DNA of 64,000 bases from Mumia quercus (GTDB lineage Bacteria > Actinomycetota > Actinomycetes > Propionibacteriales > Nocardioidaceae). Shown here in pieces: positions 37,048 through 40,580 of this stretch. Position numbers and translations under genes: made by a program. How positions within the stretch are numbered: the stretch's first letter is position 1; every line of letters starts with the position of its first letter. The DNA is taken from contig NZ_JANZYO010000004.1 of the NCBI RefSeq assembly GCF_025506335.1, positions 496,001 to 560,000 of the forward strand. The letters are read 5' to 3'. Under the pieces are notes generated by a model that did no database searches, had not been told where the DNA came from, and saw only the letters and a list, made by a program, of their open reading frames with translations.

Positions 37048-37620
37048 ATGGCAGGCGAACCCTTCGATCCCACCGGCAGCGAGCACCACCAGGTCATCGG
37101 ACCCGACGGTCGACCCGTCGCAGAGCCCGAGCCCGAGGCCCCGACGGAGGCCGAGGACGACGTCCGCTCGGTCACCGAGCTGGTCGAGCAGCCGGCGAAG
37201 GTCATGCGGATCGGCAGCATGATCCGGCAGCTCCTCGAAGAGGTGAAGTCCGCCCCGCTCGACGAGGCCAGCCGTGCACGCCTGCGCGACATCCACCAGA
37301 CCTCCATCAAGGAGCTCGAGGACGGGCTCGCTCCTGAGCTCGTGGAGGAGCTCGAGCGGCTGAGCCTGCCGTTCAACGAGACGACTCCGTCCGACGACGA
37401 GCTGCGGATCGCCCAGGCCCAGCTCGTGGGCTGGCTCGAAGGGCTGTTCCACGGGATCCAGACGGCGATCTACGCCCAGCAGATGGCCTCGCAGGCCCAG
37501 CTGCAGCAGATGCGCCGTGCGCTCCCGGGCGGTCAGCCCGTCCAGATCCAGGGGCGCCCCGGGATGCCGGCTCAGACCGCCGACGACGGTACTCAGCAGC
37601 GGCCGGGCATGTACCTCTGA
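37048..37620 (+). CDS. bpa: Bacterial proteasome activator
   Basis: A 190-residue Bpa/PafE protein (DUF2587). The central helical part (QPAKVMRIGSMIRQLLEEVK, LVGWLEGLFHGIQTAIYAQQ) forms the four-helix ring subunit, and the C-terminus is GMYL, matching the GQYL-type hydrophobic-Tyr-x motif that docks into and opens the 20S proteasome gate. Bpa lets the proteasome degrade unfolded proteins without ATP. Its presence implies a proteasome elsewhere in this genome. Confidence 0.93.
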   Translation: MAGEPFDPTGSEHHQVIGPDGRPVAEPEPEAPTEAEDDVRSVTELVEQPAKVMRIGSMIRQLLEEVKSAPLDEASRARLRDIHQTSIKELEDGLAPELVEELERLSLPFNETTPSDDELRIAQAQLVGWLEGLFHGIQTAIYAQQMASQAQLQQMRRALPGGQPVQIQGRPGMPAQTADDGTQQRPGMYL

Positions 37621-37770
37621 TCGCGTAACCCGCCTGACCTGTCAAGGATGCGTGACAGAAACCTGCTGTTGGCCCTCTCGGCAGCTACTGTGTGACACGT
37701 ACGGCAGGTACTCGCCTGGCGATGAGTAGGCATTTATCAGCATCTGAGTACTTGCGCGCTGATTACTCTC

Positions 37771-37826
37771 TTGACACCGATGTTTGACTTTCTGCATCTC
37801 GAAGCACCCAAGGAGATGCAGAACCC
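37771..37826 (+). promoter_or_regulatory. Leader with RBS-overlapping hairpin
   Basis: CTGCATCTC (37792-37800) pairs perfectly with GAGATGCAG (37813-37821) across a 12-nt loop. The Shine-Dalgarno sequence AAGGAG (37810-37815) is half inside the 3' arm, so the stem would hide it. The ATG is at 37827. A TTGACA hexamer at 37771 may be a -35 element. Upstream (37700-37770) are several TACTC/GAGTA half-sites in an AT-richer tract. Confidence 0.6.
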
Positions 37827-38420
37827 ATGTACTTCGTCTCGGACCGCCGCCAGGTCGACTCGCACACCGACGTCGTTCCTGCGTGCACGCGGATGCCCGA
37901 TGTCTACGACACCCTGAGCGAGCCGCTCGAGGACCTCTCAAGGTCCGGGGCGAGCTGGGACGCGTGGTTGTCGGCCCACGCCCAGGCCCGCGAGGCCTGT
38001 GCCGCGTGCCCGCTCCTCACCCAGTGCCTCTACCGCGCCGTGGTCGACGGGGAGGTCGCCGGCTACGCCGCCTGCACCTCACCTGAGGACCGTGCGGAGA
38101 TGCGCTCACGGCTCGGCATCACGCTCACCGCCCCCGACATCGACCGCATCGCCGGTGTCCGTGCGGCCGGCTCACCTGTCGACCACGACGCGATCCTCGC
38201 CGCACGCCGCCTCTACCCGCGCGACACCTTCGCCCAGCTCGCCGAGCGCCTCGGGTGCTCGTTGTCCACGGTCAAGCGCCACCTCCGCGAGGCGTCGTCG
38301 AACAAGAAGCCCGCCACCCCCGCCCGTACGCGGACGACGCGGCCGACGGTCGACGAGGTGCTCGACGTCTTCGACGAGGTCGTCTCGGCCCGCGTCACTT
38401 CCTGCCCCCTCAGCGCGTAG
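37827..38420 (+). CDS. WhiB-like Fe-S domain fused to a C-terminal HTH
   Basis: A 197-residue protein. C20, C58, C61 and C67 (C-x37-C-x2-C-x5-C, in EACAACPLLTQC) match the WhiB cluster pattern, but the usual GVWGG turn is replaced by VAGYAACTSPEDR, which adds another Cys. Residues 125-155 (DTFAQLAERLGCSLSTVKRH) form a clear helix-turn-helix, unlike standard WhiB proteins, which lack one. It is likely an Fe-S-sensing DNA-binding regulator. The leader hairpin over the RBS suggests translational control. Confidence 0.75.
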   Translation: MYFVSDRRQVDSHTDVVPACTRMPDVYDTLSEPLEDLSRSGASWDAWLSAHAQAREACAACPLLTQCLYRAVVDGEVAGYAACTSPEDRAEMRSRLGITLTAPDIDRIAGVRAAGSPVDHDAILAARRLYPRDTFAQLAERLGCSLSTVKRHLREASSNKKPATPARTRTTRPTVDEVLDVFDEVVSARVTSCPLSA

Positions 38421-38490: not shown

Positions 38491-39309
38491 TCAGAGGTAC
38501 TTCTCGAGCTCCCGGACGACCCCGTCGTTCTCCACGGTCTCGGTGACGTCGTCGGCCACGGACTGCACGTGCAGAGGGGCGTGGCCCATCGCGACCCCGC
38601 GCCCGGCCCACTCGAGCATCTCGACGTCGTTCGAGCCGTCGCCGATCGCCAGGACGTCCTTGCGGTCGACGCCCAGCTCCGCGCAGATCTTCTCCAGACC
38701 CGCCGCCTTGGACACGCCCTCGGGGGCGAGGTCGAGCCACGCGGTGTAGCCGACGTAGTAGTTCGTGCCCTCCAGCCCCAGCGAGTGGGCGAGCTCGGCG
38801 AACTCCTCGGCAGACGCGTCGGGGCTGCGGACGATCACGCGGCTCACCGGCTCGGCGATGAGGTCCTCGACGGGCTCGTGCGAGATGACGCCGCTCAGCT
38901 CACCGTCGGGGAACGCCTTGTTCATGCGGTAGCCGGTGCCGACGTTCTCCACCGCCACCGCGGCGTCCGGCACCGCCTCGAGCAGCGCGCGTACGGCCGG
39001 ACCGGCGTCGAACGTCACGGTGTGCAGGATCTTCACCGGGTCGTACGAGAACACGACCGAGCCGTTGCTCGCCACCGCGAGACCGTCGCTGAACCCGAGC
39101 TTGGCGACCGCGTCCATCACCCCCGGCACCGCGCGGCCCGTGGAGATCACGCAGTGCATGCCGGCCTCGGCGGTGGCGCGGACCACCTGGCGTACGGCGT
39201 CGGTCATCTCGTTGGCGTAGTCGACGATCGTGCCGTCCACGTCGAGGGCCACGATGCGTGGCCTCCAGGTCGTGGCGGCCCCGTCGGTGGTGTGCGAGGT
39301 CAACGTCAA
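38491..39309 (-). CDS. HAD-superfamily (Cof-type) phosphatase
   Basis: A 272-residue HAD hydrolase: motif [12 protein letters not shown], motif II ISTGRAV, motif III Lys region [13 protein letters not shown] and motif [14 protein letters not shown]. The C2B cap and length match Cof/YbiV-type sugar phosphatases. No ATG is available; TTG 39309 overlaps the serS stop (TTGA), and TTG 39303 is the alternative. It is probably coupled to serS. Confidence 0.85.
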
Positions 39310-40580
39310 GACAGCGGCTCCAAGATCTCTCGTCCTGCGAGGTAGGGCTGCAGCGCCAGGGGGACCCGGACGGACCCGTCGGCCTGCTGGTGGTTTTCGA
39401 GGAGGGCGATGATCGTCCGGGTCGACGCCATCAACGTGCCGTTGAGGGTCGCCAGCGGGGTGACCTGGTCGCCGTCGCGCATGCGGATGCCCAGACGGCG
39501 CGCCTGGAAGCTGGTGCAGTTCGAGGTGGAGGTCAGCTCGCGGTACTTGCCCTGGGTGGGGATCCACGCCTCGCAGTCGAACTTGCGGATCGCGGAGAGG
39601 CCGAGGTCCCCGGCCGCCACGTCGATCACGCGGTACGGGAGCTCGAGCGCGTCGAGCCAGTCCTGCTCGTGGCGCAGCAGCTCCTCGTGGACCGCGTACG
39701 AGTCCTCGGGCGTGGCATAGACGAACATCTCCACCTTGTCGAACCAGTGCACCCGGAAGATGCCCCGGGTGTCCTTCCCGTACGAGCCTGCCTCGCGGCG
39801 ATAGCACGGGCTGAACCCTGCGTAACGGCGCGGCAACGACTGGGCGTCGAGGATCTCGTCGGAGTGGTACGCCGCGAGCGGCACCTCCGACGTGCCGACG
39901 AGGTAGAGGTCGTCCTTCTCGAGGTGGTAGACGTCGTCGGCGGCCTGGCCGAGGAACCCGGTGCCCTCCATCGCCGATGGCTTCACCAGCGCCGGCGGGA
40001 TCATGGGCGTGAAGCCCCACGCGGCCGCGCGGTCCATCGCCATCTGGACCAGCGCCATCTCGAGCTGGGCGCCGATACCGGTCAGGAAGTAGAAGCGGGC
40101 GCCGCTGACCTTCGCGCCCCGCTCGATGTCGAACGCGCCGAGGCGCTTGCCGATCTCGATGTGGTCGAGCGGCTCGAAGCCCTCGGCGGCGAAGTCGCGC
40201 GGCTCGCCCACGACCTCGCGGACGACGAAGTCCTCCTCGCCGCCCTCAGGAGCCTCCGGCGCCGCCAGGTTGGGGAGCGTGGCGAGCAGCGTGTCGAACG
40301 TCGATGCCGCCGCGTCGGAGGCCGCGCTGGCCTCCTTGACCTGAGCGGCGAGCTCCTTCGTACGGGCAAGGAGCGCAGCCTTCTCGTCGCCCGACGCCTT
40401 CGCGACCTGCTTGCCGAGCTGCTTCTGCTCGGCCCGCAGCGCCTCGTACCGGCCGATCGACGATCGACGTGCCTCGTCGGCGGAGACCAGCTCGTCGACG
40501 ACAGCCTCGGACTCACCGCGGCGGCGCTGAGCAGCGCGGATCTCGTCAGGGTTGTCACGAAGGATACGAACGTCGATCAT
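39306..40580 (-). CDS. serS: Seryl-tRNA synthetase
   Basis: A 424-residue class II synthetase. The N-terminal coiled-coil arm (residues 25-105) grips the long variable arm of tRNA-Ser. Motif 2 ([20 protein letters not shown]) and motif 3 ([18 protein letters not shown]) are intact. It charges serine onto tRNA-Ser; two such tRNA genes lie 7-9 kb away. It is divergent from the PAP2-kinase gene with a 43-nt gap. Confidence 0.97.

Follow-up and report, generated by a model that had tools for sequence, protein, structure and literature searches.

A WhiB-like protein without the sigma-contact tryptophan and with its own helix-turn-helix, downstream of a conserved putative operator

Introduction

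It has long been discussed how WhiB proteins select specific promoters when they carry no DNA-binding domain. Canonical WhiB proteins dock on the main sigma factor, gripping its region 4 with a pair of phenylalanines (F-F) and the tryptophan of a GVWGG turn, the residues in contact with sigma-A region 4 being F17, F18 and W60 in WhiB1, and a typical Wbl protein is 81-139 aa long. In the sections of the Bush review that treat this point, Wbl proteins other than WhiB7 are described as having no recognisable DNA-binding domain (PMC6282962). One gene in the window analysed here (the whole stretch of 64,000 nucleotides from Mumia quercus) raises the question anew. Its open frame (37827..38420, + strand, ATG start, 197 aa), which we call WHTH, was described in an earlier note as a WhiB-like four-cysteine pattern joined to a separate helix-turn-helix (HTH), and it was proposed that it may be a distinct class of iron-sulfur regulator that binds DNA directly, possibly at TACTC/GAGTA sites upstream of its own gene. 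What kind of WhiB protein is this, and what reads the sites before it? A natural WhiB-HTH chain without the sigma-contact tryptophan would make cluster sensing separable from sigma docking and so offer a clean test.

Results and Discussion

A WhiB domain lacking two of three canonical sigma-contact residues

WHTH carries four cysteines, the putative cluster ligands, at the spacing C-x37-C-x2-C-x5-C (C20 at 37884, C58 at 37998, C61 at 38007 and C67 at 38025; codons spanning 37884..38027, + strand). The Pfam model Whib (PF02467) matches narrowly above its curated cut-off (24.8 against 23.6 bits), the match being confined to residues 49-92 and to the final two thirds of the model. The WhiB-like pattern of the earlier note is borne out. 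No NCBIfam profile scored above its cut-off for WHTH in the window, matches of the single protein to PDB sequences were weak (16 bits, to WhiB1), and the length of 197 aa lies outside the typical Wbl range. The cysteines are strongly conserved. In a first alignment of 30 sequences C20, C58, C61 and C67 were kept in 30, 30, 30 and 29, respectively, and all four are present in 94 of the 95 entries that passed a motif filter. Two of 96 entries are without one cysteine, namely L065 (C67 changed), a draft MAG that did not pass the filter, and L103, in which no first cysteine was found. In a further alignment of 53 sequences (A2), C58, C61, C67, G79, T84, R89, R93 and R127 are invariant and C20 is nearly so.

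The turn G[V/I]W[G/A]G is said to occur in all Wbl proteins in the relevant parts of two papers (PMC6282962, PMC10245118). At this place WHTH reads GYAACT (residues 79-84; 38061..38078, + strand), and tryptophan is found in the turn of 0 of 95 entries, which confirms the loss of GVWGG suspected from the window. The most frequent variants are GFVAGT (42 entries), GFVACT (13) and GYVGCT (8), with others in the remainder, and the invariant G79 and T84 of A2 frame the turn in 53 of 53 sequences. The F-F pair could be compared on a short, manual alignment, where F or Y stands first in 86 of 91 sequences, whereas F stands second in just 1 of 91, Q, L or D mostly taking its place. In the portion of PMC10245118 that deals with WhiB3, changing F31, F32 or W76 singly to alanine abolished binding to sigma-A region 4. 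Two of the three canonical sigma contacts, the second F and the W, are thus lost from WHTH as far as the alignments tell, and a sigma contact may still be conceivable given that one aromatic contact is retained. Inspection of the sequence revealed no AT-hook of the WhiB7 type.

Cys-x2-Cys pairs bind zinc in many proteins, and it could be argued that the four cysteines of WHTH hold a structural zinc ion in a DNA-binding protein that senses no redox change. However, WHTH shares its cysteine arrangement and its fold with WhiB proteins, to which the pertinent section of PMC6282962 assigns a [4Fe-4S] cluster, and we regard the zinc reading as unlikely.

A conserved HTH in the same chain

The HTH that had been seen as a separate attachment is also real by comparison. 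It occupies residues 120-158 (38184..38300, + strand), as supported by the invariant columns of A2, by three predicted helices and by the Pfam profile Sigma70_r4, to which all 53 family members gave matches at E <= 0.01. In the window protein itself Sigma70_r4 reaches 22.8 bits against a curated cut-off of 24.1 and comes first among several HTH profiles that fall within residues 122-158, all of them below their cut-offs. The recognition helix (residues 146-158) bears the motif CSxSTxKRHxR, and C144-S-x-S-T-x-K-R-H-x-R is invariant in A2.

An AlphaFold2 model computed on A2 (mean pLDDT 84.8, pTM 0.65) has a WhiB-like N-terminal part, HTH helices at residues 120-129, 135-142 and 146-158, and a C-terminal helix, VDEVLDVFDEVV, predicted with pLDDT > 90 at residues 175-191 (38349..38399, + strand). 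P173 and V178, around this helix, are nearly invariant in A2, and the helix could possibly serve in dimerization or docking. A Foldseek search of the model against the PDB gave no match at E <= 0.001, with WhiB1:SigA entries ranking first. With a second structure aligner the seven best matches were WhiB, WhiB3 and WhiB1, within residues 4-97, at modest Z scores (5.7-6.2; rmsd 2.6-6.6 over 70-77 residues), and for residues 113-162 the HTHs of Lrp/AsnC, resolvase, SETMAR and sigma chains tied. Because the two parts match in this manner, the N-terminal part, including the first cysteine, looks WhiB-like in the model and the HTH looks generic.

It would be tempting to take the Sigma70_r4 matches in all 53 members as a sign of sigma mimicry, in which the WhiB domain packs in cis on a sigma-4-like HTH and copies the WhiB:sigma-A4 complex. 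A precedent is on record, as the section of PMC6282962 on fusions describes WblP, in which a Wbl domain is fused to an ECF sigma factor. Yet WHTH has lost two residues of the known interface, the W and one F, its HTH resembles no one fold in particular, as seen from the tie above, and no sigma region 2 model (Sigma70_r2) is among the best 25 of the 26 Pfam families matched by the 53 members. We therefore hold cis packing of this kind to be unlikely, and binding of such a mimic to -35-like elements or to the RNA polymerase flap to be just as unlikely. Since two of the three sigma contacts are lost and an HTH lies in the chain, an ordinary site-specific regulator is most likely, and the conserved HTH makes direct DNA binding by WHTH likely. 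A fifth cysteine, C144 (38256-38258), is present just ahead of the recognition helix in 53 of 53 members, and a redox role for it is possible.

Relation to described Wbl proteins

Seven loci of the same genome score above the Whib cut-off, and six of them have GVWGG or GIWGG. The best PDB-sequence matches of five of these paralogs are WhiB of Streptomyces (148 bits), WhiB1 (136 bits), WhiB3 (88 bits), WhiB4 (97 bits) and WhiB7 (129 bits). As separate WhiB, WhiB1, WhiB3, WhiB4 and WhiB7 proteins thus occur in one genome, WHTH is a further kind. In 12 of 12 further genomes stronger Whib matches are likewise present alongside a weak one at the WHTH locus. In a tree of 36 rows and 90 columns, with long branches and without an outgroup, WHTH falls in a clade apart from the genome's six other WhiB proteins, with support 100/99. 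Assignment of WHTH to a described Wbl class was considered and rejected in view of the 16 bits to WhiB1, the tree split and the class members already present in its own genome. The earlier note had asked whether WHTH falls within a described WhiB subclass; profile search and phylogeny set it apart, and the proposal of a distinct class of WhiB-like iron-sulfur regulator draws support from four sides, namely the profile match, the alignment of the family, the fold and the tree. The sixth paralog (1307-1618 of the window, - strand) has an AT-hook-like RGRGRPR stretch and is WhiB7-like by sequence only, and another WhiB7-like gene is found in the same genome (L037).

WHTH shares the four-cysteine pattern and the WhiB fold with Wbl classes I-V (WhiB1/WblE, WhiB2/WhiB, WhiB3/WhiD, WhiB4/WblA and WhiB7/WblC), but differs from them in the absence of GVWGG, in its size (197 against 81-139 aa) and in having an HTH of its own. 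WblP, as described in that part of PMC6282962, resembles WHTH in joining a Wbl domain and a DNA-binding partner in one chain, whereas WHTH carries an HTH only; the two are set apart here by the description of WblP. A like arrangement of parts is seen in a plasmid WhiB-family protein of Streptomyces anulatus (WP_331759124.1), which has four cysteines, a turn without W (GIVAGTT) and, after the turn as in WHTH, a weak HTH_11 match at residues 128-149. It lies on the WHTH side of the tree, but unlike WHTH it is plasmid-borne, and the two are 38% identical over half the length. The plasmid protein is matched by 33 phage records, over its WhiB part only. Among phage WhiB-like families in PHROGs, phrog_664 spans both domains of WHTH (residues 54-177) and phrog_10071 covers residues 35-113, both at weak scores (24-31 bits).

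The literature searched, which took in few subscription papers, yielded no account of a WhiB-HTH class. We conclude that WHTH is a real, conserved variant, a WhiB sensor with an HTH, that is new to this literature; how it works biochemically we infer from the comparisons.

Distribution and gene neighbourhood

Matches to WHTH were obtained in 33 of 58 near genomes at E <= 0.001. A few weak ones among them are spurious: of three inspected, that of G025 and the second of G001 are chance hits in unrelated frames, and that of G033 was not reproduced. With the family alignment at E <= 1e-15, WHTH is present in 148 of 293 genomes of the order Propionibacteriales, in 25 of 37 genera, and no genome of genus g7 is among the matches listed for the order. 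Phylum-wide, the alignment matches 3 of 396 genomes at E <= 1e-10, one of them in the WhiB part only.

In a named collection 128 stretches encode WHTH relatives, and 80 of these loci were kept for neighbourhood counts, which include several contigs too short for both flanks. The kept loci come from Mumia, Aeromicrobium, Kribbella and many Propionibacteriaceae, including Cutibacterium (L119, L120). In 62 of the 80, WHTH lies between bpa, upstream on the same strand, and a convergent HAD gene. In the window these neighbours are bpa, the bacterial proteasome activator gene (37048..37620, + strand; Pfam BPA, 253 bits), located ahead of WHTH and in the same orientation at 64 of 80 loci; a HAD-type phosphatase gene (38491..39306, - strand; Pfam Hydrolase_3), convergent downstream in 67 of 80; and serS, for seryl-tRNA synthetase (39306..40580, - strand; identified with Pfam), downstream in 64 of 80. 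WHTH thus reaches Cutibacterium and, at many loci, Kribbella, usually beside bpa, and this wide spread within the order together with the placement between bpa and the HAD gene suggests an old, vertically kept chromosomal gene. A phage origin was rejected: tblastn with WHTH gave no match at E <= 0.01 in 50,697 phage records, and a scan of viral contigs found no relative.

Two side cases deserve mention. Mumia sp. zg.B17 (G002) has two tandem WHTH copies (L042:3100-4540), the first of which has a diverged recognition helix, CSVSTVKRRVR, and a short upstream region without a TGAGTA pair. A distant relative in genus g35 (L123) has four cysteines, the turn GYTAAT and a C-terminal stretch, VERILDAFD, like that of WHTH, and an HTH between the cysteine part and this stretch is not evident.

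A putative operator and its reader

Four half-sites precede WHTH in the window: TACTC (37709..37713, - strand), a direct pair of TGAGTA 22 bp apart (37723..37728 and 37745..37750, + strand), and a degenerate TACTC, read as TACTCT (37764..37768, - strand). The whole genome of 4.1 Mb has a single TGAGTA-N12..20-TGAGTA, and other Mumia loci that were read have direct pairs at 21-23 bp. As the half-site had been named from the window alone, the relatives of WHTH provide an independent check. In 57 non-redundant upstream regions the most enriched six-mer is TACTCA/TGAGTA (42 occurrences against 3.7 expected, in 20 of 57 regions). The palindrome TRRGTA-N4-TACYYA, a degenerate form picked after some relatives had been inspected, is present in 14 of 57 regions (200 shuffles: mean 0.005, maximum 1), and TGAGTA pairs at 21-23 bp are present in 8 of 57 (200 shuffles: maximum 0). 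Neither the palindrome nor such pairs were found in 32 upstream regions of bpa, 38 of HAD and 29 of serS, or at four other neighbours. The sites are, on this comparison, a real and conserved operator before WHTH. A third half-site often lies 22-23 bp from another at WHTH palindromes. The three Mumia genomes in the draw of the order have no TRRGTA-N4-TACYYA, direct TGAGTA pairs being found instead in the Mumia loci read, and the Kribbella and Aeromicrobium upstream regions read have no TGAGTA site.

Several other readings of the upstream region were rejected. The k-mer AGGTACAT was set aside as a regulatory motif because bpa ends with it: this conserved 3' terminus of the coding sequence reads PGMYL-stop. 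An HspR-type site was dismissed because a global heat-shock site would be expected elsewhere, the strict palindrome occurring only 0-1 times in each of 12 genomes; the spacing of HspR sites also differs from that of the TGAGTA palindrome. A wider regulon sought with one mismatch gave few sites, in most genomes not above the reversed control, and two extra one-mismatch sites in G460 adjoin unrelated genes. A scan for sigma-70 promoters and terminators found none.

The strict palindrome TGAGTA-N4-TACTCA occurs once each in 4 of 12 selected genomes, always at WHTH; the degenerate form is present in 11 of 13 selected genomes. Does WHTH itself read these half-sites, in a feedback switch with nearly a single target? 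There are several suggestive points. In 10 of the 13 selected genomes the degenerate form is present just once. The site stays with WHTH at L063, L117 and L118, where 8.5 kb shows no match to bpa or HAD, and a half-site spacing of about one or two helical turns fits an HTH dimer. In an unselected draw of the order the degenerate palindrome is found in 109 of 293 genomes. Within family f2 it is present in 49 of 85 genomes with WHTH and in 10 of 39 without, and of the 67 sites in the 49, 41 sit 126-254 bp ahead of the WHTH match, in 40 of the 85 WHTH genomes. Among the remaining 26 is a sequence that G643 (contig C1) has seven times, TGGGTATCGATACCCA, a repeated element or the site of another regulator.

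Against autoregulation, however, stand sites away from WHTH. In Kribbella a conserved strict palindrome lies elsewhere in the genome, and four of four copies read precede one kind of gene, whose membrane-spanning product has a pair of Cys at its N-terminus. The Kribbella WHTH has the same recognition helix yet no site at its gene in the regions read. Among 13 palindrome sites read in genomes without WHTH, at least six precede the same kind of membrane protein gene (gene calls by frame and third-position GC, membrane spans judged by eye), and some of these have a further GAGT half-site 7-8 bp on. As the palindrome precedes the membrane gene where WHTH is absent, it must be read there by something other than WHTH. 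Another, more widespread regulator, rather than WHTH, is on sequence grounds the more likely reader of the WHTH operator, the simplest view being that this same reader also controls WHTH; autoregulation we regard as possible and rather doubtful. The proposal that the TACTC/GAGTA sites are WHTH's own operator is thus retained in part: the operator is conserved, in 40 of 85 f2 genomes, but it also stands before another gene in genomes without WHTH. TGAGTA-N4-TACTCA points to the site of a further regulator across the order.

The membrane-gene palindromes are at L177, L179, L182-L184, L188-L190, L201 and L202. One copy of the Kribbella membrane protein that was scanned matched DUF2157 weakly, and two similar-looking membrane proteins from genomes without WHTH had no Pfam match. 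At L178:1186-1786, TGAGTATGCATACTCA is separated by a few bases from the start of a gene for a PadR-type regulator, after which come ABC transporter genes. Several Kribbella genomes have this PadR-linked palindrome at a distance of about 7 kb from WHTH, and it may belong to the PadR-type regulator.

Proposed mechanism

Comparison of sequences establishes the two-domain architecture of WHTH, its conservation, the loss of GVWGG and the operator, and from these we infer a cluster, its signal, DNA binding, a dimer and targets. The N-terminal WhiB domain would hold a cluster, most likely [4Fe-4S], on C20, C58, C61 and C67 and would sense O2, NO or redox state. DNA recognition would come from the HTH in the chain, nearest in sequence to sigma region 4, so that WHTH would act as a site-specific, probably dimeric regulator whose DNA binding depends on the state of the cluster. 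Its gene would be controlled through the TGAGTA half-sites, more likely by the more widespread regulator than by WHTH. We consider it probable that WHTH derives from WhiB proteins as a divergent, cluster-bearing one-component regulator that binds DNA and stands under a conserved operator. Whether it forms an order-wide sixth branch of WhiB proteins, which has given up sigma docking and now works self-sufficiently, through an HTH of its own, as an iron-sulfur one-component repressor or activator, we judge evenly balanced; if true, a WhiB sensor would be wired directly to a site-specific DNA reader, which is absent from canonical WhiB proteins.

A further element lies in the leader. A candidate 5'-UTR hairpin (37790..37823, + strand) has its 3' arm over part of the Shine-Dalgarno sequence AAGGAG (37810-37815). 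Its stem has 11 pairs in the window (-16.9 kcal/mol, z -3.58), and 1 of 200 shuffles was as good. Rfam returned only a chance miRNA match, and the shuffle control on conservation in Mumia is weak (76 of 500). A nine-pair core is paired in 98.1% of cells in six Mumia sequences, with one pair changed on both sides, from C-G to U-A, and the hairpin, as a candidate, may add translational control in Mumia by covering the ribosome-binding site.
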